NCBI GenBank assembly: GCA_946405625.1
Contig: CAMJHQ010000015.1
Coordinates: 1-64,000, forward strand
Length of the DNA: 64,000 bases
From: an uncultured Lachnospiraceae bacterium
Lineage (GTDB): Bacteria; Bacillota; Clostridia; Lachnospirales; Lachnospiraceae
Direction of reading: 5' to 3'
Shown here: positions 17,639-64,000 of the stretch, piece after piece
Position numbering within the stretch: the stretch's first letter is position 1
Layout of the letters: each line of letters opens with the position of its first letter
Notes under the pieces: generated by a model
What the model was told of the DNA's origin: nothing
The model's input: only the letters and a program-made list of their open reading frames with translations
The model's database searches: none
Translations under genes and position numbers: made by a program

Positions 17639-17896
17639 TAATCATAGACGATTCGGCGGTTTCAAGGCCGTTCCGAAACCGGCGTCTGAATGAGATTATT
17701 TATACATTTCGGACAGTTCCGAATCATCGTCCGAATGAGTTTATTTTTTCATTCCGGACAGTTCAGAATCTATCGGCCGAATGAGTTTATTTTTTCATTC
17801 CGGACAGTTCAGAATCTATCGGCCGAATGAGTTTATTTTTTCATTCCGGACAGTTCAGAATCTATCGGCCGAAATAGTTTATTATTCACTTTGGAC
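17639..17896. repeat. 46-bp tandem array between glgB and holA
   Basis: CCGAATGAG starts at 17731, 17777 and 17823 and a partial copy at 17869, an exact 46-bp step. Two more diverged copies precede (from about 17639 and 17685). Each unit holds GAATGA...TCATTC as an inverted repeat around an A/T run, and a GGACAGTTC segment. The spacer between the divergent glgB and holA genes is 415 bp and holds nothing else I can name apart from the A/T palindrome at 17534-17553. Confidence 0.85.
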
Positions 17897-22284: not shown

Positions 22285-23256
22285 ATGAAAAAAAGAATAC
22301 TGAAGATACTGAGAATAATACTTATTGCACTTGCACTTTTTATTACGGTGCTTTCAATAAGACACCACTTTAAGAGTAAATCCGACAGGGAACTCTTCGC
22401 CGATGCATATGGCGAGTACTATACCACACCGGAGGGTGAAAGAATTAACTACACCATATATGACAGCAGCTCTGACAAGGTTATGGTAATTCTCCCAGGT
22501 TTCGGCTGTTCATCAGCCCATTATGAATTTGATGCACTTGCCAAAGACCTGATTGACCTATATAAGGTTATAATAGTCGAACCTCTGGGTGTCGGTCTCA
22601 GTGACGAAACCGACAGAGACCGTTCCGTAGAAAATTACTGTTCTGAACTTCACGGACTCATGCAGTATCTGGGTTTTGACAGCTATACCATCCTTGGTCA
22701 CTCTATATCCGGTGTATACATTCTGGACTATGCAAACAGATATCCGAATGAAGTCGAGGCCTTCATAGGAATAGATGCTACTCTTCCTCGCCAGTGGGAA
22801 ATATGCCCCAAGGCTGCACTTCCCGAAAATCAGTATAAGCAGGATAAAATACTGAAATATCTGCTGGTCAACACAGGTATATACAGATTCTTTACCGAAC
22901 TGTCCTTCGATGAATATCTGAAGGGTATTCCTACTATTACTAATGATGAAAAGCCTATCGTTCTCGCTATGTATTGTACAGATCAGCTTCGCCCTACTCA
23001 GCTTCGTGAAATGAAATCGCTCAGAGCAAACTCCGAAGCCTGCCTGAACGAAAAATTCCCCGAATCGATTCCGGTCCTCTATCTTCTCTCCGAGGATAAC
23101 TGCAATCTGATGTCCGAATGGTATGATATTCATAAGGAAGTAATAGTTAATCCTTCAAGCCGTGTCACTATACTGAAGGGAGGACATTATTTACATCTGG
23201 ATAATCGTGAGGGAGTTGTGGAAGAGATCAGGAAATTTGCCAACCAATACAGATGA
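22285..23256 (+). CDS. Alpha/beta hydrolase, membrane-anchored
   Basis: 323 residues. An N-terminal signal anchor (residues about 5-25) precedes an alpha/beta-hydrolase fold. Nucleophile elbow GHSISG with Ser140, an oxyanion segment LPGFGCSS, and the C-terminal His in KGGHYLHLDN. It probably acts outside the membrane on an ester or related small molecule; the substrate is not visible from sequence. Second gene of the TetR-controlled operon. Confidence 0.85.
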   Translation: MKKRILKILRIILIALALFITVLSIRHHFKSKSDRELFADAYGEYYTTPEGERINYTIYDSSSDKVMVILPGFGCSSAHYEFDALAKDLIDLYKVIIVEPLGVGLSDETDRDRSVENYCSELHGLMQYLGFDSYTILGHSISGVYILDYANRYPNEVEAFIGIDATLPRQWEICPKAALPENQYKQDKILKYLLVNTGIYRFFTELSFDEYLKGIPTITNDEKPIVLAMYCTDQLRPTQLREMKSLRANSEACLNEKFPESIPVLYLLSEDNCNLMSEWYDIHKEVIVNPSSRVTILKGGHYLHLDNREGVVEEIRKFANQYR

Positions 23257-23277
23257 AGTTTCAACTAATCAGTTTAC

Positions 23278-23330
23278 AAAAAGCCATAGGCAGTTTTGCT
23301 TACGAGTAAGCATACCACCTATGGCTTTTT
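23278..23330 (+). terminator. Terminator of the tetR-hydrolase operon
   Basis: AAAAAGCCATAGG (23278-23290) pairs with CCTATGGCTTTTT (23318-23330), a 13-bp outer stem. An inner GCTTAC-type hairpin lies between the arms. The A-rich left side lets it also work on the other strand. Confidence 0.85.
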
Positions 23331-23460
23331 GTAACTGTGAATTGTAACTCCTGCAAATTGTTGAAAAATGATTTTTTAATTGAAAATTGAATTTATTAAT
23401 GCTAGTAATTCTAAACAAATACTGTTTCAATCTAGCAATTACTCTTTTTTTCTTTATTCC

Positions 23461-23867
23461 GGCTAACCGCTCTGGCTTTTCCGTCCTTCTGGTTAGCTTT
23501 TGATCTTCTTATTACTCTTCTTTTCTTCATTCCGGCTAACCGCTCTGGCTTTTCCGCCCTTCTGGTTAGCTTTTTGATCTTCTTATTACCCTTCTTTTCT
23601 TTATTTCGGCTAACCGCTCTGGCTTTCCCGCCCTTCCGGTTAGCTTTTTGATCTTGTTATTACCCTTCTTTTCTTTATTTCGGCTAACCACTCTGGCTTT
23701 TCCGTCCTTCCGGTTAGCTTTTTGATCTTGTTATTACCCTTCTTTTCTTTATTTCGGCTAACCACTCTGGCTTTTCTACACCTCCGGTTAGCCGGCTAAG
23801 CGTAAAGAATCCTGAAAATAGCTGAATTCAGCTAACCAATACATGAAATATAGAGGGATGGTTAGCT
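23461..23867. repeat. Palindrome array, first half: GCTAACC/GGTTAGC units
   Basis: Five units begin at 23461, 23534, 23608, 23682 and 23756 and a sixth, more diverged, hairpin at 23830, a step of 73-74 bp throughout. Each holds a 36-38 bp stem-loop. Stems: GCTAACC/GGTTAGC in the first four (8 bp with the inner G-C pair in the third), CGGCTAACC/GGTTAGCCG in the fifth, AGCTAACC/GGTTAGCT in the sixth. Units 2-4 continue with TTTTTGATCTT and so look like stacked intrinsic terminators on the plus strand. A weaker TGCTAG/CTAGCA hairpin of the same size at 23400-23437 may be a further copy. No coding frame is supported on either strand. Confidence 0.9.
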
Positions 23868-23913
23868 TGCCAGACGCGGTGAAGCCGAAGGCACGAGGAA
23901 CAGCGTTGATGTT

Positions 23914-24421
23914 TACTAACAATTTCGAAGAAACAGCATTATTGTTAGTACTTCTTCTGGAATTCTCAAGTTGAAGATCTGTTGTTTACTAATAATATTG
24001 AGAAAATCGCAAAATTATTAGTATTTCATCCGGATTTCTCGCGTCGAAGATCTGTTGTTTACTAATAATATTGAGAAAACGGCATTATTATTAGTACTTC
24101 AATCGAAAAGCCCGCGACAATGCATTGAAGTTTACTAACAGAAATAGAAGAACGGCATTATTATTAGTACTTCAATCGAAAAGCCCGCGACAATGCATTG
24201 AAGTTTACTAACAGAAATAGAAGAACGGCATTATTATTAGTACTTCAATCGAAAAGCCCGCGACAATGCATTGAAGTTTACTAACAGAAATAGAAGAACG
24301 GCATTATTATTAGTACTTCATCCAGAAATCTCAGGTTGAAGCGACCTTGAAGCGACCTTGAAGCGACCTTGAAGCGTTGATGTTTACTAACAATTCTGAG
24401 AGAACGGCATTATTGTTAGTA
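23914..24421. repeat. Palindrome array, second half: TACTAA/TTAGTA units
   Basis: Seven 37-bp stem-loops start at 23914, 23987, 24060, 24133, 24206, 24279 and 24385; the step is exactly 73 bp except the last (106). Stems: TACTAACAAT/ATTGTTAGTA in units 1 and 7, TACTAATAAT/ATTATTAGTA in units 2 and 3, and only TACTAA/TTAGTA in units 4-6, which are otherwise identical over the full period. The linkers carry a second inverted repeat, ACTTCAAT/ATTGAAGT in the identical units. The stretch 24422-24629 leads to the GH120 gene and holds no gene. Confidence 0.9.
24338..24376. repeat. 11-bp triplication inside the palindrome array
   Basis: GAAGCGACCTT occurs three times in a row (24338, 24349, 24360) followed by a partial fourth copy. 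Its 33 bp account exactly for the larger last step of the array (106 = 73 + 33). Confidence 0.9.
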
Positions 24422-27013: not shown

Positions 27014-27082
27014 TTTGATACCTCCATCATTTCTCTCAATAGATTATTTAGTGTAAATTCTTTAATTCGTCAACAAATATCA

Positions 27083-27185
27083 ATAATAATCTCCGGCTAT
27101 AGAACCAGCAATTATAAATAATAATCACCGGCTATAGAACCAGCTGTTATAAATAATAATCATCGACTATAGAACTAGTCATCAA
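27083..27185. repeat. 35-bp tandem copies of the ridA 3' end
   Basis: CCGGCTATAGAACCAG occurs at 27093 and 27128 and its diverged form TCGACTATAGAACTAG at 27163, a 35-bp step. The last copy contains the ridA stop codon (27175-27177); the other two lie in the spacer. Confidence 0.8.
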
Positions 27186-29198: not shown

Positions 29199-31268
29199 TT
29201 ATTTGCATTTTATTAGTATACCATCTGATAATCTATATACTTCATCTCCTATTTCCTCAAATGTTTTTTTATGTGTTATCATAATACAAGTTACTTTGTT
29301 TGAAATATCAGCAATAAGATTTTTTATTATTTTTTCATTTTTCATATCCAAATTACTTGTCACTTCATCAAATATCAATACTTCTGGTTCACGTATCAAC
29401 GCTCTTGCTATCGCCAACCGTTGTTTTTCTCCTTCAGAGAATCCTTTACCATTCTCTCCAATTCTTGTATCCAATCCATTAGGCAGCTTATTTAGCATAT
29501 CATCTAGATTACACTTTTTTATAGCTTCAAAAATCACATCCGAAGAAATGTTATCATCCCACATAGTCAAGTTCTCATAAATAGACCCCTCAAAAAATGG
29601 AGGTGATTGTGTTACATATATTAAACTATTACGAGGAAAGCCTATCAATTTACCCTTATCTGGTAAATAGAATCCTGCCATTATTTTCGCTAGTGTACTT
29701 TTTCCACTGCCACTTTCCCCAATTAATACCACCGTATTTCCTTTTCTAATTTTTAAATTTACTCCCTTTAAAATATAATCTCCATTTCGATATTTAAACC
29801 AAAGATCATTTATACTAAGTTCATTATTCGAAACATCATCCATTGTTTTAGAACTGTCAGTATTATCATCATGAATCATAATATCATTTAATCTGTCTAC
29901 AGAAATCAATGACTTAGGTATATCTGCTACAATTGAAAAAACACCAATAAAAGCAGAAATAAAATATCCCATAACAAAATAAAAAGAAAAAAAATCCGAT
30001 AGTGCTATCTTATCGTGAAAACACATATCAATACCAACAAAAAACAGCACTATAATACCTATAGTCGAAATCAAATCAACTATAGCATCCCTAAATCCTC
30101 CATAAATAGACAATCTATAATTTGACTTTACATATTCCTTATAACCATCATATAGTTTTTTTCTTACTACATTTTCTGATTTATATGCTTTTATAGTTTC
30201 TATATATTCTATACATTCTTTTATGCGCGACGCAAAACTTGCTCTTTTAACTAATGTCATTTGCTCATACGATGCCATTCTATTTGAAGATAAGCAGATT
30301 ACCATCATCATAAACATAATCATAACTATAACAATAAAAGTTAATTGTATATTAAGCTTAATCAACAAAATCAGACAAAAAATAGATAGTATTAAATCAA
30401 CAATAAAAACATTCGCTAAGCTAACCAGCAATCCCCTTAAAACTTCAATATCATTACATCTTGAGACAAGCTCTCCATTCTTATAACCATTAAAAAAAAT
30501 GAGAGATTTATTAAACATATGAATTAAATATTTATCAATTATACCAACATCCATTTTATTTGATATTCTCATCAATAAAACATTTAAAACCTGTTGTATA
30601 ATCATTTTAAAAACTGTAATAATTCCTAATGCTACACAAATCTTCTTAAACAAGATCATTTGATAATAATCATTTATACTTTTTTCATTAAACATGCCTT
30701 GCAAAACTAAAATGCACGATAAACTAACAAGAATGATTATTATTGTTAATATAAATGAAGTTATCAACTTACCTTTTTGCGAGTATATAAAATTCAGATA
30801 GTATATATAGTCACCTTTTCTCTCATTCTTCTTTTCAAAAAGTGAACTTTTTTCAAATGTAATTATGTATCCCAAAAATATTTTATCAAAGTATTCTATT
30901 CTTTCTTTTCTAATCTTTTCTACTGCCGGATCAGCGAGGAATATATGCTTTTCCGTAATTTTATATACCACAACAAAATGAGTCAAATATGCCTCGTTTA
31001 GAATATTAGCTATTATAGGAAGTTTTATTTCATTATTTTTTACAGCATCAACCAATTCCTTTATATCACATCCATAGGCCTCTGCTTTCATGCCAACGGT
31101 TTTGGCAGCTTCGATTATACCGAAGGCACTTGTGCCTTGTATATCTACCCCAACTAAATCTCTGCATGAGGAGTACTTAAGTTTTAATCCATAATATTGA
31201 CATATAGTTGAAAAACATGCTGCACCACAATCCTTTTCATCATGCTGCATAACAAATGATTTCTTCAT
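29199..31268 (-). CDS. Peptidase-containing ABC exporter (C39, bacteriocin type)
   Basis: 689 residues. N-terminal C39 peptidase with catalytic Cys14 (DCGAAC), His97 (THFVVV) and Asp113 (ADPA); membrane domain of about six helices (about 160-440); ABC ATPase with Walker A GESGSGKSTLAK, signature FSEGEKQRLA and Walker B VLIFDEVTSNLD. The family cuts a leader after Gly-Gly and exports the peptide. A double-glycine peptide gene lies two genes upstream on the same strand, so this is its likely processor. Started at ATG 31268 with AAAAGGTG upstream; GTG 31280 is the alternative. Strongly AT-rich, unlike its neighbours, suggesting transfer. Confidence 0.93.
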   Translation of the reverse strand: MKKSFVMQHDEKDCGAACFSTICQYYGLKLKYSSCRDLVGVDIQGTSAFGIIEAAKTVGMKAEAYGCDIKELVDAVKNNEIKLPIIANILNEAYLTHFVVVYKITEKHIFLADPAVEKIRKERIEYFDKIFLGYIITFEKSSLFEKKNERKGDYIYYLNFIYSQKGKLITSFILTIIIILVSLSCILVLQGMFNEKSINDYYQMILFKKICVALGIITVFKMIIQQVLNVLLMRISNKMDVGIIDKYLIHMFNKSLIFFNGYKNGELVSRCNDIEVLRGLLVSLANVFIVDLILSIFCLILLIKLNIQLTFIVIVMIMFMMMVICLSSNRMASYEQMTLVKRASFASRIKECIEYIETIKAYKSENVVRKKLYDGYKEYVKSNYRLSIYGGFRDAIVDLISTIGIIVLFFVGIDMCFHDKIALSDFFSFYFVMGYFISAFIGVFSIVADIPKSLISVDRLNDIMIHDDNTDSSKTMDDVSNNELSINDLWFKYRNGDYILKGVNLKIRKGNTVVLIGESGSGKSTLAKIMAGFYLPDKGKLIGFPRNSLIYVTQSPPFFEGSIYENLTMWDDNISSDVIFEAIKKCNLDDMLNKLPNGLDTRIGENGKGFSEGEKQRLAIARALIREPEVLIFDEVTSNLDMKNEKIIKNLIADISNKVTCIMITHKKTFEEIGDEVYRLSDGILIKCK

Positions 31269-31283
31269 ATCGTATTTCACCTT

Positions 31284-33476
31284 TTAGTACGTTTCATCCA
31301 AATATACTGATGCTCTATTTTCTATATTGTTCATTGTTTGATTGATATCAGCATCACCATTAAAATACGATTCAGATTCATCTATAATAATATTGAGCAA
31401 TTCTGTATCACTGTCTTTTATCTTATTGATACTATCTACTAATTCAATATACTCTTTCTCCTCTTCATCTGTAATCGGTTTCAATTCTACCTCTACACCA
31501 AATGCATTATATTCATAATTTCTCGGTTCGATAGTATTCCCATATTTATCTTCATATGACGTTTCCGTTTTAAGTTCCATCATTTTCATATCAAAACAAT
31601 CCTGACGTGTTGGCATATTATATTCCATATGTTCATATTGAAAGTCTTCTGTCATAAATTCTCTGATTATTTGCCATGCTACTTCTTTATTCTTGGATGC
31701 TGCAGATATACCATACATATTTGAAAAAGAAAAATATGATCCACCATCTATATCCGGATATCCTATATAGTTTACATCTTCATATATTTTCTCATTAGCT
31801 TGAAACATATCAATATCCAATTCTTCGGTAGTCTGAAGTAATATTTTCCCTTTTCTGAAATCATCCACATCATCTAATAGCTGATCATACATTTCTTTTT
31901 CATCATTTAGATTTGCATAAAGCTTTTCATTTTTTTGTCCGTATGATTTACACATATCTATAAAATCCGAAAACTGAGTTGAAGTAATAAAACTCATACA
32001 TCTTTCTTTATCAGTGAAATCACTTAAAGAATACACTCCAATTTCCATCAATAAATCCATACTAGAATCTAATCCAGTCAATCTTTCTGGTTTTATATCC
32101 TTTACACATTCAATAAACTGATCAAAATCCCACTGATCATATGATTTCAGTTTTTTCGAACAAGTGTATGCGGTTATTATTGAATAATGAGATGCAACAT
32201 AATATATTTTTCCATCCTTTTCAATTGTATCTTTTACAGAACCAATTAAATCATCTGGATTAATTTCTGAGTCACTATAATAATATTCTGATAGATCTGC
32301 TAATAAGCCCTTATTAATATAATCATTTAGAAAATGTCCATATGATAAATCAAAAATATCCGGACAATTATCTGATGCAATATCAAGATTTATTTGTGTA
32401 TATGGATCACTAAATCTTCTGTAATCTTTGATTTCCACATAATAATCTCTATTTGATTTATTAAATTTATTAACCACTCCATAGAGTTCTACAGATGGAG
32501 AAAAGCTCCCTATAAGTATTTTGGTTTTGTTTTCATTAATTATATTTGGTGTGTTTTTTTCATCCGGATATATTTCTGTAAAGCCGGAAATATCTTTTCC
32601 ATACAAATTAATAAACTTCTTATCACTTAACGACTGAATATTTGTCACATCTTCTTTCGTCAATCCCAACGTGCTATAGTCAATTAGTTTTTCGACGCCT
32701 TTTTTATCCTCTGAATAGGAATATATACCATCCTCCATTTTCAAATAAAAGCACTCTTCATTTCCATCCAAAAGACAATTATCAACACTTATATCAGCAC
32801 TATATAATTCAGTGAATTCGTTATTCTCATATTTACATATTCGTATCGACTGTCTTGCGCCATTATCTTCAAATGCAACAATCAAATCTCCTTTATTTGT
32901 AATTGACGCATCTTTAAATGTGCCACCCTCAACATATTCCTTTTGATCTTTTACACTAAAATCGTAATCAACTATATAAATTTTCTTATCAGTAAAAACC
33001 ACATATCCATCTTTATAGTTTTTTATATATGGTTCTATTACAACTTCATCTTTTGAAACTATATCCTTTATATTTCCCGTTTTAGTCACTTGTCCCGTTT
33101 TATCGATTTTGTTTATCTCATTCTTTGAAAACAACACAATATCATTATCATTAACAATTATCTTATTGATATCATCTTCACACTCAACATCTATATTTTT
33201 TTCTTCTGCATTATCAATACAATATGTTTTTATAGTGTAATCTGAATCAATCTTTAATAATATATATATATTCCCTTCTTCAACTACGTAATCCTTTACC
33301 GTACCAGCACCATTTATATTTATGGGAACTTCAAAATAATTCTTCCCATGGTCAACTTCATCATGCTCGTTTTCGTCATAAAAAAAAGACAAATCTCCAG
33401 AGCTATCACCACCACAAGAAGTAAACGATATTAATATAGCAAACATAAATATTATAGCTAACAATCTTCGAGTCAT
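31284..33476 (-). CDS. Lipoprotein with propeller-like N-part and solute-binding C-part
   Basis: About 730 residues. Signal peptide with lipobox SFTSC, an acidic linker, about 300 residues of short repeated beta strands (propeller-like), then from about residue 320 (KTKILIGSFSPSVELYGVVNKFN) a family-1-type extracellular solute-binding fold with PDIFDLSYGHFLNDY and AASKNKEVAWQIIREFM. No sugar permease genes are near; instead it sits between a peptide precursor and a C39 exporter. It may bind the exported peptide, confer immunity or act as a receptor; all three are inference. Start is ATG 33476 behind AAAGGATTTATAAAT. AT-rich like its neighbours. Confidence 0.8.
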   Translation of the reverse strand: MTRRLLAIIFMFAILISFTSCGGDSSGDLSFFYDENEHDEVDHGKNYFEVPININGAGTVKDYVVEEGNIYILLKIDSDYTIKTYCIDNAEEKNIDVECEDDINKIIVNDNDIVLFSKNEINKIDKTGQVTKTGNIKDIVSKDEVVIEPYIKNYKDGYVVFTDKKIYIVDYDFSVKDQKEYVEGGTFKDASITNKGDLIVAFEDNGARQSIRICKYENNEFTELYSADISVDNCLLDGNEECFYLKMEDGIYSYSEDKKGVEKLIDYSTLGLTKEDVTNIQSLSDKKFINLYGKDISGFTEIYPDEKNTPNIINENKTKILIGSFSPSVELYGVVNKFNKSNRDYYVEIKDYRRFSDPYTQINLDIASDNCPDIFDLSYGHFLNDYINKGLLADLSEYYYSDSEINPDDLIGSVKDTIEKDGKIYYVASHYSIITAYTCSKKLKSYDQWDFDQFIECVKDIKPERLTGLDSSMDLLMEIGVYSLSDFTDKERCMSFITSTQFSDFIDMCKSYGQKNEKLYANLNDEKEMYDQLLDDVDDFRKGKILLQTTEELDIDMFQANEKIYEDVNYIGYPDIDGGSYFSFSNMYGISAASKNKEVAWQIIREFMTEDFQYEHMEYNMPTRQDCFDMKMMELKTETSYEDKYGNTIEPRNYEYNAFGVEVELKPITDEEEKEYIELVDSINKIKDSDTELLNIIIDESESYFNGDADINQTMNNIENRASVYLDETY

Positions 33477-33502
33477 ATTTATAAATCCTTTCAAAAAATC
33501 AA

Positions 33503-33540
33503 AGCATATCTGTTTTATAATATAATAAAACAGATATGCT
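33503..33540 (-). terminator. Attenuator between peptide precursor and lipoprotein gene
   Basis: A perfect 16-bp stem (AGCATATCTGTTTTAT / ATAAAACAGATATGCT) with a 6-nt loop lies 27 nt after the precursor stop codon, followed on the minus strand by TTGATTTTTTG. It would let the short precursor mRNA accumulate over the downstream lipoprotein-exporter message. Confidence 0.88.
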
Positions 33541-33567
33541 GCGTATTCTCATAACACTATAATTATT

Positions 33568-33762
33568 TTACAGCCATCTATATCTGTGTCCACCCTTCGA
33601 ACCACCATTAACTATATAGTGCATTTCTGCTTTAGCTTTTGTTAAGTCTCTGGATCGTCCTGAAAAGCATGTATCACATGCAACACATTCAGCAGCATAT
33701 GTATCCCAATAACCTGTTCCCCCGTTAACTTTTTTCTGTCTTTCTGCATCTAGTTTAGTCAT
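33568..33762 (-). CDS. Double-glycine leader peptide precursor (putative bacteriocin or signal)
   Basis: 64 residues, starting at the ATG behind GGAGGTG with 7-nt spacing. The 15-residue leader MTKLDAERQKKVNGG has the LxxE...VxGG pattern cut by C39 peptidases. The 49-residue core begins TGYWDTYAAECVACDTC, with Cys26, Cys29 and Cys32, and ends GGHRYRWL, basic and aromatic. A second VNGG lies at 51-54. No modification enzyme or dedicated immunity gene is next to it. The core does not match a bacteriocin family I can name. First gene of the AT-rich cluster, with its own near-consensus promoter and an attenuator behind it. Confidence 0.85.
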   Translation of the reverse strand: MTKLDAERQKKVNGGTGYWDTYAAECVACDTCFSGRSRDLTKAKAEMHYIVNGGSKGGHRYRWL

Positions 33763-33827
33763 GTAAGCACACCTCCAAAAATATTTTTTTGCCAATATAA
33801 TTCAAGTAAATATGAGAATAACAATCA

Positions 33828-45938: not shown

Positions 45939-46060
45939 CGCTTATTTTTTCTTAAAACTCTACACGCTCTCGCTTAAATTTTCCTAAAACTCCACACACT
46001 CTCGCTTAAATTTTCCTAAAACTCCACACACTCTCGCTTAAATTCCCCTAAGACTCAACC
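45939..46060. repeat. 32-bp tandem copies of the response regulator 3' end
   Basis: CGCTTAAATTTTCC-type units start at 45939, 45971, 46003 and 46035, an exact 32-bp step. Each unit ends in a copy of the regulator's last codons and TAG stop. Confidence 0.88.
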
Positions 46061-61143: not shown

Positions 61144-64000
61144 TTAAGATAATACACTTTTAATTTCCGATGCTGTCTGTAAATACTTATCAAGAAGCTT
61201 ATCAATACCCTTATTAATCACATCTGAATTATTGACTTTTGCCGCCATCTCCTGTTCAAGAGCCATCGCCGACAGTTCATCCAGCCCTATCATTTTAGCA
61301 GTACTCTTCAAAGCATGTACTCGAACCTGATAATCATTAATGTCATGTTCTGTATGATCCTGCCTGATCATATCAGCTTTATCTTTTGCAGCATCCGCAA
61401 AATCTCTTACAAGCTCCAGATAGAGATCCCTGTCTTCTGCCGAATAAGAAAGTCCACTTGCGGTATTAACTCCAATCTCCTTCAGCCCCTCTATGAAGTC
61501 CTTCGGGCCATCTGCCTTGGACACAGCCTTCTGCTGATCTTCTGCAGGAAATTCCATCGGTTCATCCGCGTCTGATCCTTCCGGAAGAAACTCTATCGGC
61601 TCATCTTCGTCCGATCCTTCCGGAAGAAACTCCATCGGCTCATCCGCGTCTACTTCGGCAATCGGAAAATCGATCGGTGCATTATTATATGGCTTTTCTA
61701 TATTGATAACCTCCGGACTCATTACCTCTTCAGATTGATTATCCGAATCAAAAAGTTCCTTCGGCAGATACTTTACGAGCATAGCCTCAAGCTTGGACAG
61801 ATCTATCGGTTTAGACAGATAATCATCAAAGCCTGCATTAAGATACATTTCTTTAGCACCCACAATAGCATTTGCCGTAAGTGCAACAACCGATGTTTCC
61901 TTCTTCAAAATATGATCTTCTCTAAGCTTATGAAGTACTTCGATTCCATCCATCTTAGGCATCATATGATCAAGGAAAACTATATGATAATCATTCACAC
62001 GTATTTTCTCTATAGCTTCCGGACCCGAGCTTGCCAGATCAGGAATGATTCCGCTAAGCTTGAGCAGGTTCTTTGCGACCTTAAGATTCATCTCATTATC
62101 ATCTACTACAAGAACCTTGGCTCCATCGATTTTGAGACGGGCCTTACGCTTTGTCTGATTTTCACTTTTCTTCAACCAATCAACATAGTTGCCTATCGGT
62201 GTACTGTCCACAATCTTCTGACGAAGTACAAATGAGAATTCGGAGCCTTTTCTGTATTTACTCTTAACAGTCAGCTCACTGCCCATCATCGGAAGAAGCT
62301 TATTAACTATAGCCATTCCAAGACCGGTACCTTCAATATTTCGATTACGTTTTTCTTCAAGTCTCTCAAATGATTCAAACAGTTTTCCGAGATCTTCTTC
62401 TTTAATTCCGATTCCTGTATCCTTTACGCAGATGAAGAGACTTATCATATTATCATCACGGCTTTGTTCCTTGATTATCAGCCTGACAGTTCCCTTCTCG
62501 GTATATTTTACAGCATTTGTCAACAGGTTCATTATAACCTGTGCGATTCTTATATCATCACCACAGAGTGTTGACGGAAGAGTCTCGCTTATATCTGCTA
62601 TGAAGTTGAGTCCCTTTGCCTTTGCACGCTCCAGTATAGATATAACAAGGTTATTGATCATAGATGAAGTACTGTAATTAGCAGTTATTATCTCCATCTT
62701 TCCGTCTTCTATCTTTGAAAAATCAAGTATCGTATTAACCAGTGACAGCAGTGTTTTTCCTGCCATCTGAATGTTTGAAGAATACTCCTGAATATCCTTT
62801 TCGGTTGACTCATGAAGAATCATTTCATTCATTCCGAGAATTGAATTGATAGGTGTTCTTATCTCATGAGACATATTTGCAAGGAAATCACTCTTTGCCC
62901 TGTTCGCCGAATCCGCTATCTTAATCTGTTTCTGAAGCGAGGATGACATCGTCTGTAAACTGCGGGACAGAATTCCTATCTCATCATTGCCCTTCACACT
63001 CATCTTTTCACTGAAATCACCGTTCGCATAATTCTCTGCAACATCTGTCATTCTTTTTATAGGTCTTGTAATAGTCCTTACCCAGATGAGAGTTATCAGA
63101 ACTGCAAGAAGCAGAATAACAACAGAGATCATCAACTGCTGTCCTGTCAGACTCTGCTGAGGTGCATTTATTTCCTGGATCGGAGCATAGAATCCGAGGA
63201 TCATTCCGTTCTTCAGTTCCTTCAGTACAAGCTTCTGCTGTGTACCTATACGCGAACGAAAAACAACCGGATTGTTCAGTTCCAGATCAAGTACATTTTT
63301 AAAGTACTGCTGATCACTTTCCGGAAGATTCTCAAAGCTTATACCATCCGGGTAGTCTTCATGATAGACAACATTTCCATTCTTATCTATAAGAAATGCA
63401 CGGCCCGTATCATATACCTTTACATTTGCAACAGATTCTTTTAAAAGATCCATGCTGATATCCATGCCGATTATTCCCACGGTATAGCCTTTATAATAAT
63501 ACGGAATTATATATGAGATCATATCAACACCGAGATTGGCGTTGTAGTAAGGATCCATCCACATCGGCTTACCTGTAGCAATCGGAGTATAGTACCAGCC
63601 TACATGTTCCAGATCGTCTTTATCATAAAGACTCATGTCAGTCGGCACAGAAGGCTGCCAGGAATTGTCATCTATGTTGATAGTATACCAGAAACCGCTT
63701 ATCGGTCCAAAATCATCGGGATTGTAGCGGAGATAAACAGCCATAGCGCCGCGTGTGTTCTCGGCGATACTCTTACCGAGCTCCGAGACATCATACGTAT
63801 ATTCATCGCGTTCTTTCTCATCCTCAAGAAACGCAGTGTAAGTTTCGGCTCTTTTATTTGCATAGTTGAATATAGTTCCCACTGACTGCTCGGTTGACCT
63901 GAAATTATCATCTATAACGTTTGCATAGTAATCAGCGGTCTTGGACAGAATGTCCTTTGAATCGTCATCAAGAATGGCATTGGTTCGCAAGGTTGAAGTA
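61144..64000 (-). CDS. Hybrid sensor histidine kinase (N-terminus outside the window)
   Basis: At least 950 residues; the frame runs open to the window edge, and the TTG at 63990 is not the start. Domains in order: an extracellular dCache-like sensor; a membrane helix; HAMP; HisKA with SHEIRTPINSILG; ATPase with NLLTNAVKYTEKG and GTGLGMAIV; a receiver domain with VLVVDDNEMN and the acceptor Asp in VFLDHMMPKMDG; a repeated Glu/Pro linker (EPMEFLPEGSDEDEPIEF type); and an HPt domain with the phospho-His in VHALKSTAKMIGL. A full phosphorelay is present in one chain. It leads the operon with the AraC regulator and the APH-type kinase. Confidence 0.92.
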   Translation of the reverse strand, partial: TSTLRTNAILDDDSKDILSKTADYYANVIDDNFRSTEQSVGTIFNYANKRAETYTAFLEDEKERDEYTYDVSELGKSIAENTRGAMAVYLRYNPDDFGPISGFWYTINIDDNSWQPSVPTDMSLYDKDDLEHVGWYYTPIATGKPMWMDPYYNANLGVDMISYIIPYYYKGYTVGIIGMDISMDLLKESVANVKVYDTGRAFLIDKNGNVVYHEDYPDGISFENLPESDQQYFKNVLDLELNNPVVFRSRIGTQQKLVLKELKNGMILGFYAPIQEINAPQQSLTGQQLMISVVILLLAVLITLIWVRTITRPIKRMTDVAENYANGDFSEKMSVKGNDEIGILSRSLQTMSSSLQKQIKIADSANRAKSDFLANMSHEIRTPINSILGMNEMILHESTEKDIQEYSSNIQMAGKTLLSLVNTILDFSKIEDGKMEIITANYSTSSMINNLVISILERAKAKGLNFIADISETLPSTLCGDDIRIAQVIMNLLTNAVKYTEKGTVRLIIKEQSRDDNMISLFICVKDTGIGIKEEDLGKLFESFERLEEKRNRNIEGTGLGMAIVNKLLPMMGSELTVKSKYRKGSEFSFVLRQKIVDSTPIGNYVDWLKKSENQTKRKARLKIDGAKVLVVDDNEMNLKVAKNLLKLSGIIPDLASSGPEAIEKIRVNDYHIVFLDHMMPKMDGIEVLHKLREDHILKKETSVVALTANAIVGAKEMYLNAGFDDYLSKPIDLSKLEAMLVKYLPKELFDSDNQSEEVMSPEVINIEKPYNNAPIDFPIAEVDADEPMEFLPEGSDEDEPIEFLPEGSDADEPMEFPAEDQQKAVSKADGPKDFIEGLKEIGVNTASGLSYSAEDRDLYLELVRDFADAAKDKADMIRQDHTEHDINDYQVRVHALKSTAKMIGLDELSAMALEQEMAAKVNNSDVINKGIDKLLDKYLQTASEIKSVLS

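Follow-up and report, generated by a model that had tools for sequence, protein, structure and literature searches.

The stretch of DNA analysed here (the window, 64,000 nucleotides from an uncultured Lachnospiraceae bacterium) carries at 23461..24421 an array of 13 dyads with two arm classes, six dyads of class A and seven of class B, and with somewhat better than even confidence we take these to be the DNA binding sites of a ~270-aa PD-(D/E)XK-like protein whose gene lies elsewhere in this genome; binding, cleavage and dispersal by this protein are what we infer from the evidence below. Evenly spaced mirror-image sites together with a nuclease-like gene, found in some gut and rumen bacteria, point to an undescribed two-part DNA-recognition system.

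Layout and helical phasing of the array

The features of the region are collected in Table 1. An earlier note on this DNA had listed hairpin starts at 13 positions and all 13 dyads lie within one base of these, while its step of 73–74 bp holds for ten of the 12 steps between dyads (73, 74, 74, 74, 74, 84, 73, 73, 73, 73, 73, 106) but omits the 84-bp step, where the two arm classes meet, and the 106-bp step, which contains an 11-bp repeat (106−73=33). The main period is 74 bp in class A and 73 bp in class B (arms TACTAAC/GTTAGTA). Units within one array are near copies, the whole 73/74-bp unit being repeated, and no reading frame of 60 aa or more was found inside 23461–24421. A pattern spanning two units (CTAAC-N23/24-GTTAG-N40-CTAAC-N23/24-GTTAG) has 10 matches in the window and none in 200 letter shuffles of it, and a chance origin of the array was rejected on this ground. 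A separate hairpin with a long perfect stem (ACAAAAAGCCATAGG...CCTATGGCTTTTTGT), seen by eye at 23276–23332 on the 3′ side of the hydrolase gene, is a probable terminator.

Table 1. Positions in the window of the dyad array, its parts and the genes on either side
Feature	Position	Strand
Class A array, six dyads GCTAACC-N22-GGTTAGC, period 73–74	23462..23866	
Class A dyad starts	23462, 23535, 23609, 23683, 23757, 23831	
Class B array, seven dyads TACTAA(C/T)-N23-(A/G)TTAGTA, period 73, last step 106	23914..24421	
Class B dyad starts	23914, 23987, 24060, 24133, 24206, 24279, 24385	
Junction of arm classes, outer gap 50 instead of 40 (from five-base cores)	23867..23913	
11-bp tandem repeat TTGAAGCGACC, 3.7 copies, lengthening the final class B step	24336..24376	
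Flanking alpha/beta hydrolase gene	22285..23256	+
Flanking gene with GH120 insertion domain and beta-helix	24630..26645	+

Comparison between arrays shows that only the arms and their spacing are kept (CTAAC-N23/24-GTTAG, then 40 bp). Across the array places of the window's own genome (G000) and two loci of relatives, the inner gap is 23 or 24 bp in 117 of 119 cases and the outer gap 40 bp in 87 of 94; in a wider set the latter figure is 194/210, a value partly built into the search pattern. A unit profile was made from 161 non-redundant units out of 379 (no more than 50% identity outside the arms; two further units with an inner gap of 22 were left out) and has no strongly conserved column away from the arms. 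The A/T content outside the arms of these 161 units oscillates with a period of 10.25–10.5 bp, above all 1,000 shuffles. With the arms masked, the power at 10.5 bp is 0.50 in units with an inner gap of 24 (n=122; maximum of 1,000 shuffles 0.017) and 0.30 in those with a gap of 23 (n=39; 0.052), for which the best period is 10.25. Units with a different arm, GCAACA (26 non-redundant of 92) show the same period, at a power of 0.82 against 0.098, and none of 1,000 shuffles was as high. When 12 arrays of distant paralogues were analysed singly, the harmonic of the helical turn came second in five of them and third in one, with a lower rank in the remaining six, and the phasing is unclear in most single arrays of 53, 64 and 86 bp. 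The 10.5-bp oscillation favours bent or wrapped DNA over RNA. The proposal of the earlier note that this is a protein-binding array on one helical face thus receives indirect support, from the rigid 23/24 + 40 bp geometry, from the phasing and from the fact that units of related arrays come close to 5, 6, 7 and 8 turns in length (86 bp being 2 bp off).

The note had also read the stem changes as compensatory, and this stands in part. Across the 161 non-redundant units symmetric arm pairing exceeds that of shuffles, but only at positions −3 to −1 and +1, +2 around the CTAAC core, and the unit interiors do not pair, a limit that fits half-sites of ~10 bp or short stems. Within the window, where the perfect stems are 6–11 bp long, three units (24133, 24206 and 24279) retain only a 6-bp stem, one arm having changed and its partner not, and two (23987 and 24060) have a C/T–A/G double change in the paired arms. 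The window alone is weak evidence for covariation because its changes consist mostly of the two arm classes plus these two double-change units.

A nuclease-like gene family beside the arrays

When 163 proteins encoded beside 97 arrays were clustered, the largest family comprised eight proteins of ~270 aa, and five of the eight genes have arrays on both sides (L183, L201, L213, L221 and L229). The member in the window's genome lies on contig C27 (G000:C27:2971-3786, that is L087:2971-3786, minus strand) with class A arms beside it (G000:C27:2351-2905); it is the one full-length copy found in this genome, in which no B-type gene was found to go with the class B arms. The arms beside the homologous gene of a relative (G001) are similar to those of class B. 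Neither Pfam nor NCBIfam gave a match above cut-off for the family, and such matches as its proteins have in Pfam and PDB are at chance level. In PADLOC the C-terminal part of all four proteins scanned hits the PDC-S68 profile at its C-terminus (E 7.6e-25 to 1.7e-26), and one of the four matches HEAT_CxxC_PDDEXK (8.2e-4). Seven residues (R162, S163, K164, E166, D196, E211 and H212) are invariant in 57/57 homologues and lie in the family motifs RSKSE, PDFT and WEH; set against the nuclease motifs E ... PD ... (D/E)xK, E166 and P195-D196 are conserved, and the position of the canonical PD-(D/E)XK lysine is occupied by F or another residue (E211-H212-F213). Motif and profile together suggest a PD-(D/E)XK-like nuclease in which the canonical lysine is absent. 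Both AlphaFold models of family proteins are too poor (pLDDT 57 and 54) for judging the restriction-endonuclease-like fold of such nucleases, and Foldseek matches to them count here only as a hint of a helix, hairpin, helix arrangement in the N-terminal part.

Association of gene and array was also found starting from the protein alone. Among 48 homologue loci found in this way (at most the best 30 matches per protein search, and not counting the nine proteins that arrays had led to), 38 have a tandem array of 51–86 bp within ~1.5 kb, two of the labels coming from a dyad-chain test (L281, L289) and three being doubtful (L238, L243, L286), compared with 2 of 29 control loci, all of which are flanks of a single hydrolase family within the same genus. 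Five of the ten loci that have no array label are cut by contig ends or N, and at another unlabelled locus (L235, in G001) a degenerate TACTAAC/TACTACC array can be seen by eye. Chains of at least three dyads with identical arms occur at 24/58 loci (a set including fragments and one array-found locus) against 0/29 controls and 0/58 shuffled loci. The arrays lie close to the gene, more often upstream. The second protein cluster beside arrays is ComEC, with six proteins (three with full domains, two end fragments with the lactamase part and one identified by tblastn). A ComEC match is present in the examined flank of 28/57 homologue loci, including two distant paralogues, and 26 of the 28 belong to a single clade of 35 members; this neighbourhood leaves room for a role in handling imported DNA as well as for mere synteny.

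The arms beside homologues (GGCTATAA, GCAACA, GGCTAAGA, GCAATGA, GGCTACC, TACTGTAA, GCAGCA, GCTAATC, GTCCGTGC and others) and the period (about 53, 64, 74 or 86 bp) differ between gene clades. In the 35-member clade (SH-aLRT 99) the period is 72–75 bp where labelled, apart from two doubtful labels of 51 and 56; a period of 53 bp is found in a group of four (SH-aLRT 92), one of 63–64 bp at six loci from more than one clade, and a single locus has 86 bp. Period is thus largely a clade property, not strictly clade-bound because 74 bp is also seen in distant homologues (73–74 bp at L251, L285 and L289; two other distant loci have 52–54 bp). If the arms are read by the protein, the arms of a clade should be found in genomes that have the clade, also away from the gene, and this prediction was tested for two arm types in 61 genomes of the genus. 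GCAACA arrays are present in nine, made up of all five with the matching gene clade (27 pattern matches in G076, 2 in G084, 24 in G026, 5 in G071 and 4 in G005) and four of the other 56, of which G027 and G020 have gene fragments only and G070 and G080 no gene that we could find. GCTATAA arrays are present in 4/4 genomes with one gene clade (SH-aLRT 98) and 0/57 others, and in G023 and G017 they lie on a different contig from the gene. Fisher tests give p values of 2e-5 and 2e-6, respectively, the genomes of one clade not being independent; two loci of the same clade as the GCTATAA genomes, L183 and L213, are outside the count and have GCTAAC arms. No gene was found in G068 (99% complete), which has class B arrays, or in G070 (99%), which has 21 GCAACA pattern matches, and gene fragments lie in three genomes that still have arrays (G027:C30:76908, G020:C5:17413 and G036:C7:100723). 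The agreement between arms and clades, as read from these sequences, concerns few clades and may be due to shared descent.

Distribution within and between genomes

Both classes recur in the window's genome. The class A pattern has 51 matches (control 0; being its own reverse complement, it counts the same on either strand). For class B there are 45 matches in forward and 21 in reverse orientation (two control matches for each). At least 22 places have two or more dyads in register, counted in the stretches around listed matches plus the window; L083, L091 and L094, among the stretches examined, have no in-register dyads. The two classes adjoin at four places (contigs C8, C15, C27 and C55). 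Nine of the 22 places are at contig ends (C3, C4, C13, C27, C28, C32, C37, C39 and C66), so that the true number of arrays is uncertain; the arrays may explain, and probably cause, these assembly breaks.

A scan of 84,980 species genomes with the two-unit pattern gave 66 stretches in 23 assemblies, titled only as Lachnospiraceae, Pseudobutyrivibrio, Eubacterium sp. or Clostridiales; in Lachnospiraceae bacterium G41 the array has seven units (L208). The pattern occurs in 3/397 sampled genomes of the family, with no control match among those listed. Stricter patterns match 3/61 genus genomes for class B and one of the 61 for class A, that one being the window's own genome; arrays of the three arm types searched for are present in 16/61, and other arms may exist beyond these. 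The profile of the protein family matches 25/61 genus genomes (fragments included) and 127/397 family genomes, with up to at least six matches per genome (the best six per genome were scored).

The positions of individual arrays were compared between relatives. In G001 a class B array with the same arms and period lies upstream of the counterpart of the GH120-domain gene, where the promoter region aligns with that of the window (score 178.5) and the array region scores 161.5, below the maximum of 202 from 30 shuffles. The close pair L221/L229 shares one nearly identical array, and in the array between the gene and comEC, of nine units in one and three in the other, the interior differs and the arms are kept. 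The gene cluster of L093/L335 carries its array at one end in one locus and at the other end in the other. Between the genome with classes A and B and those with GCAACA arrays, no two arrays with the same two neighbours were found, the gene's own locus excepted, a comparison that is uninformative where orthologues were missing from the stretches compared. The earlier note had regarded the array as a neutral satellite should relatives lack anything related or should the period vary freely; relatives do carry arrays, the period is fixed, and the arms persist while the rest diverges.

Mobile elements were considered as the source and rejected. For phages, the two-unit pattern had no match in viral contigs, none of 11 viral stretches with a peptide-pattern match encodes a relative of the protein, and in phage records a homologue turned up on one unannotated fecal scaffold of 4.2 kb, which has no tandem repeat. 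For plasmids, eight records gave partial matches, none over more than 80% of the query, and seven of these are annotated as AAA ATPase or RecD-like helicase, one being unannotated.

What the arrays may be

If the arrays are read by the nuclease-like protein, each dyad would consist of two inverted half-sites of ~10 bp, and the alternation of half-sites at fixed gaps of 23/24 and 40 bp would put the dyads on the same helix face. A/T-rich steps every 10.5 bp would let the DNA bend around the protein, which as a dimer or higher-order form would bind alternate half-sites on one face of the bent, perhaps wrapped, DNA. The arrays beside the gene, mostly upstream of it, probably serve autoregulation by the protein. 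Dispersed arrays with the same arms may have spread at least partly through its nuclease activity, by breakage and copying, the way RAYT is believed to spread REPs; the activity might also help homogenise the arrays, and these could be mobile.

Several other readings were weighed. One, which seems unlikely, is that the arrays mark the chromosome as self, or sequester and restrain a nuclease that attacks array-free DNA, for example DNA entering via ComEC or phage DNA, so that loss of the arrays would unleash the enzyme. Put as genome marking, and held to be just as unlikely, a PD-(D/E)XK-like nuclease near comEC would recognise arrays in helical phase as a dialect of self that is specific to the lineage. 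It would wrap DNA with arrays and cut or process DNA without the dialect, and arm words and unit length (5, 6, 7 or 8 turns) would diverge with the enzyme. The frequency of ComEC in the flanks (28/57, the distant paralogues among them), a C-terminal domain shared with the candidate defence protein PDC-S68 and arms that differ between lineages like dialects all suit such a role; however, 51 class A and 45 class B dyad matches are few for marking a genome such as G000, arrays are present where the gene was not found (G070, G068) or is a fragment (G027, G020), and the comEC neighbourhood may be plain synteny. The same arrays in G068 and G070 would be expected if these are chromosome-organising or regulatory sites (partition, condensin or nucleoid protein) of another protein, with the nuclease-like gene as a passenger, and dyads on one face with phased A/T would suit an architectural protein. 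We think this rather improbable since two arm types track the gene clade, as the period largely does, and since only 16/61 genus genomes have arrays of the three arm types searched for, others possibly having further arms.

A processed RNA array, guide or structured, with every unit forming a stem-loop for the neighbouring protein to bind as in TIGR-Tas, seems to us quite improbable, and the structured RNA suggested in the earlier note was rejected. The arms do pair and co-vary at −3 to +2, and the arrays are purine-skewed (97 arrays from named assemblies and from G000, G001 and G068, with a mean deviation of 0.163, compared with 0.065 for stretches drawn at random from these loci), the purine-rich strand being the coding strand in 39/51 co-directional arrays (p 0.0002), so that orientation relative to genes matters. 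On folding seven units as eight strands, one window unit clearly beat its shuffles on both strands (z −4.0 and −3.6); but the other six strands gave z values between −2.01 and 0.65, mostly like shuffles, three other units being beaten by 7, 11 and 14 of 200 shuffles. No Rfam family matches at the array (one sub-threshold match lies outside it), the interiors are unpaired, the A/T phasing continues through the spacer, which is needless for RNA, no Nop domain was found in the three proteins scanned, and an RNA array would yield one guide because the units are near copies. A terminator reading was rejected as well, since the 72 of the 97 arrays with both neighbours comprise 51 with co-directional, 11 with convergent and 10 with divergent genes. 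The near-copy units and the 9 versus 3 copies in close relatives also agree with a neutral satellite under gene conversion inside arrays, which we nevertheless rejected and regard as very improbable indeed, given that arms and spacing persist from array to array and from species to species, the remainder being lost, and given the restricted taxonomic spread and the gene linkage.

The reading as binding sites of the nuclease-like protein can be set beside several known systems. REP/RAYT (REPtron, TnpA-REP) combines dispersed extragenic palindromes with a linked endonuclease-type gene and enzyme-specific palindrome types (PMC8266576). The likeness with that account lies in dispersed palindromes, an endonuclease-type gene beside its own palindromes and enzyme-specific types; dispersal is found here too, at the 22 or more places in G000, and the gene is flanked by arrays on both sides in five loci. 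The suggestion in the earlier note of a REP/BIME-like element with a linked enzyme was therefore of the right kind, except that the gene linked here is no RAYT but a PD-(D/E)XK-like one. As that account has it, the REP/RAYT enzyme is of HUH (Y1) type, whereas a Pfam scan of three array-linked proteins at E up to 1 gave no match to a Y1 transposase, and a GTAG tag stands beside a compact hairpin, whereas the present arrays have no GTAG tag, leave 23–24 bp between the five-base arm cores CTAAC/GTTAG and repeat in strict tandem at about 53, 64, 74 or 86 bp. TIGR-Tas has tandem arrays upstream or downstream of one gene with locus-specific repeats, and palindromes are present in some of its arrays (PMC12045711). 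In these respects our arrays resemble it. However, TIGR-Tas as described there needs a Nop-domain protein, and no Nop match was found in Pfam at E up to 1 for the three proteins; it makes 36-nt guides with variable spacers, against which the near-copy units speak, and here there are DNA-level phasing and same-arm arrays scattered over the genome.

Other resemblances are narrower. CRISPR arrays have constant repeats with unique spacers, in tandem units next to a nuclease gene; the tandem units adjoining a nuclease-like gene are alike, whereas here the arrays have no long repeat in common and no unique spacers, the whole unit being repeated. Integron attC sites have gene cassettes between them, unlike this array with its lack of frames of 60 aa or more. 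PDC-S68 shares a C-terminal domain of ~110 residues, but its profile has ~1,200–1,270 positions and the present family matches only the C-terminal end. The DNA uptake sequences of Neisseria enhance uptake through recognition by a receptor and occur in far more copies than the arrays here. They are lineage-specific dispersed words (PMC3868556), which is a likeness, as is a possible link to DNA import through the comEC neighbour; here, by contrast, there are an array structure and no receptor candidate.

A keyword search of the open-licence literature, covering titles and the openings of abstracts, found no description of such arrays. Because the enzyme and tag of REP/RAYT and the Nop domain of TIGR-Tas were not found, the arrays and their gene may be a categorically new pairing of repeat and enzyme, which by analogy may work like REP/RAYT. 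An orphan repeat class would thereby be tied to an orphan nuclease-like family, giving what could be a second, independent case of dispersed palindromes co-evolving with their enzymes in bacteria. Since the arms, and for the most part the unit length too, change with the gene clade, the family would also offer a natural series of protein–site pairs from which to learn how half-sites set far apart on bent DNA may be read by a protein.

The window holds further features away from the array. A tandem repeat at 17688–17883 (46 bp × 4.3, 94% matches) lies just upstream of a gene that we take to be holA-like, and others are at 45939–46056 (32 bp), 61534–61651 (39 bp) and 27074–27175 (35 bp). By eye, 29199–33795 has the look of an export cluster for a bacteriocin or RiPP, with an ABC exporter gene of the peptidase type and a small peptide (75 aa) that carries a double-glycine motif.
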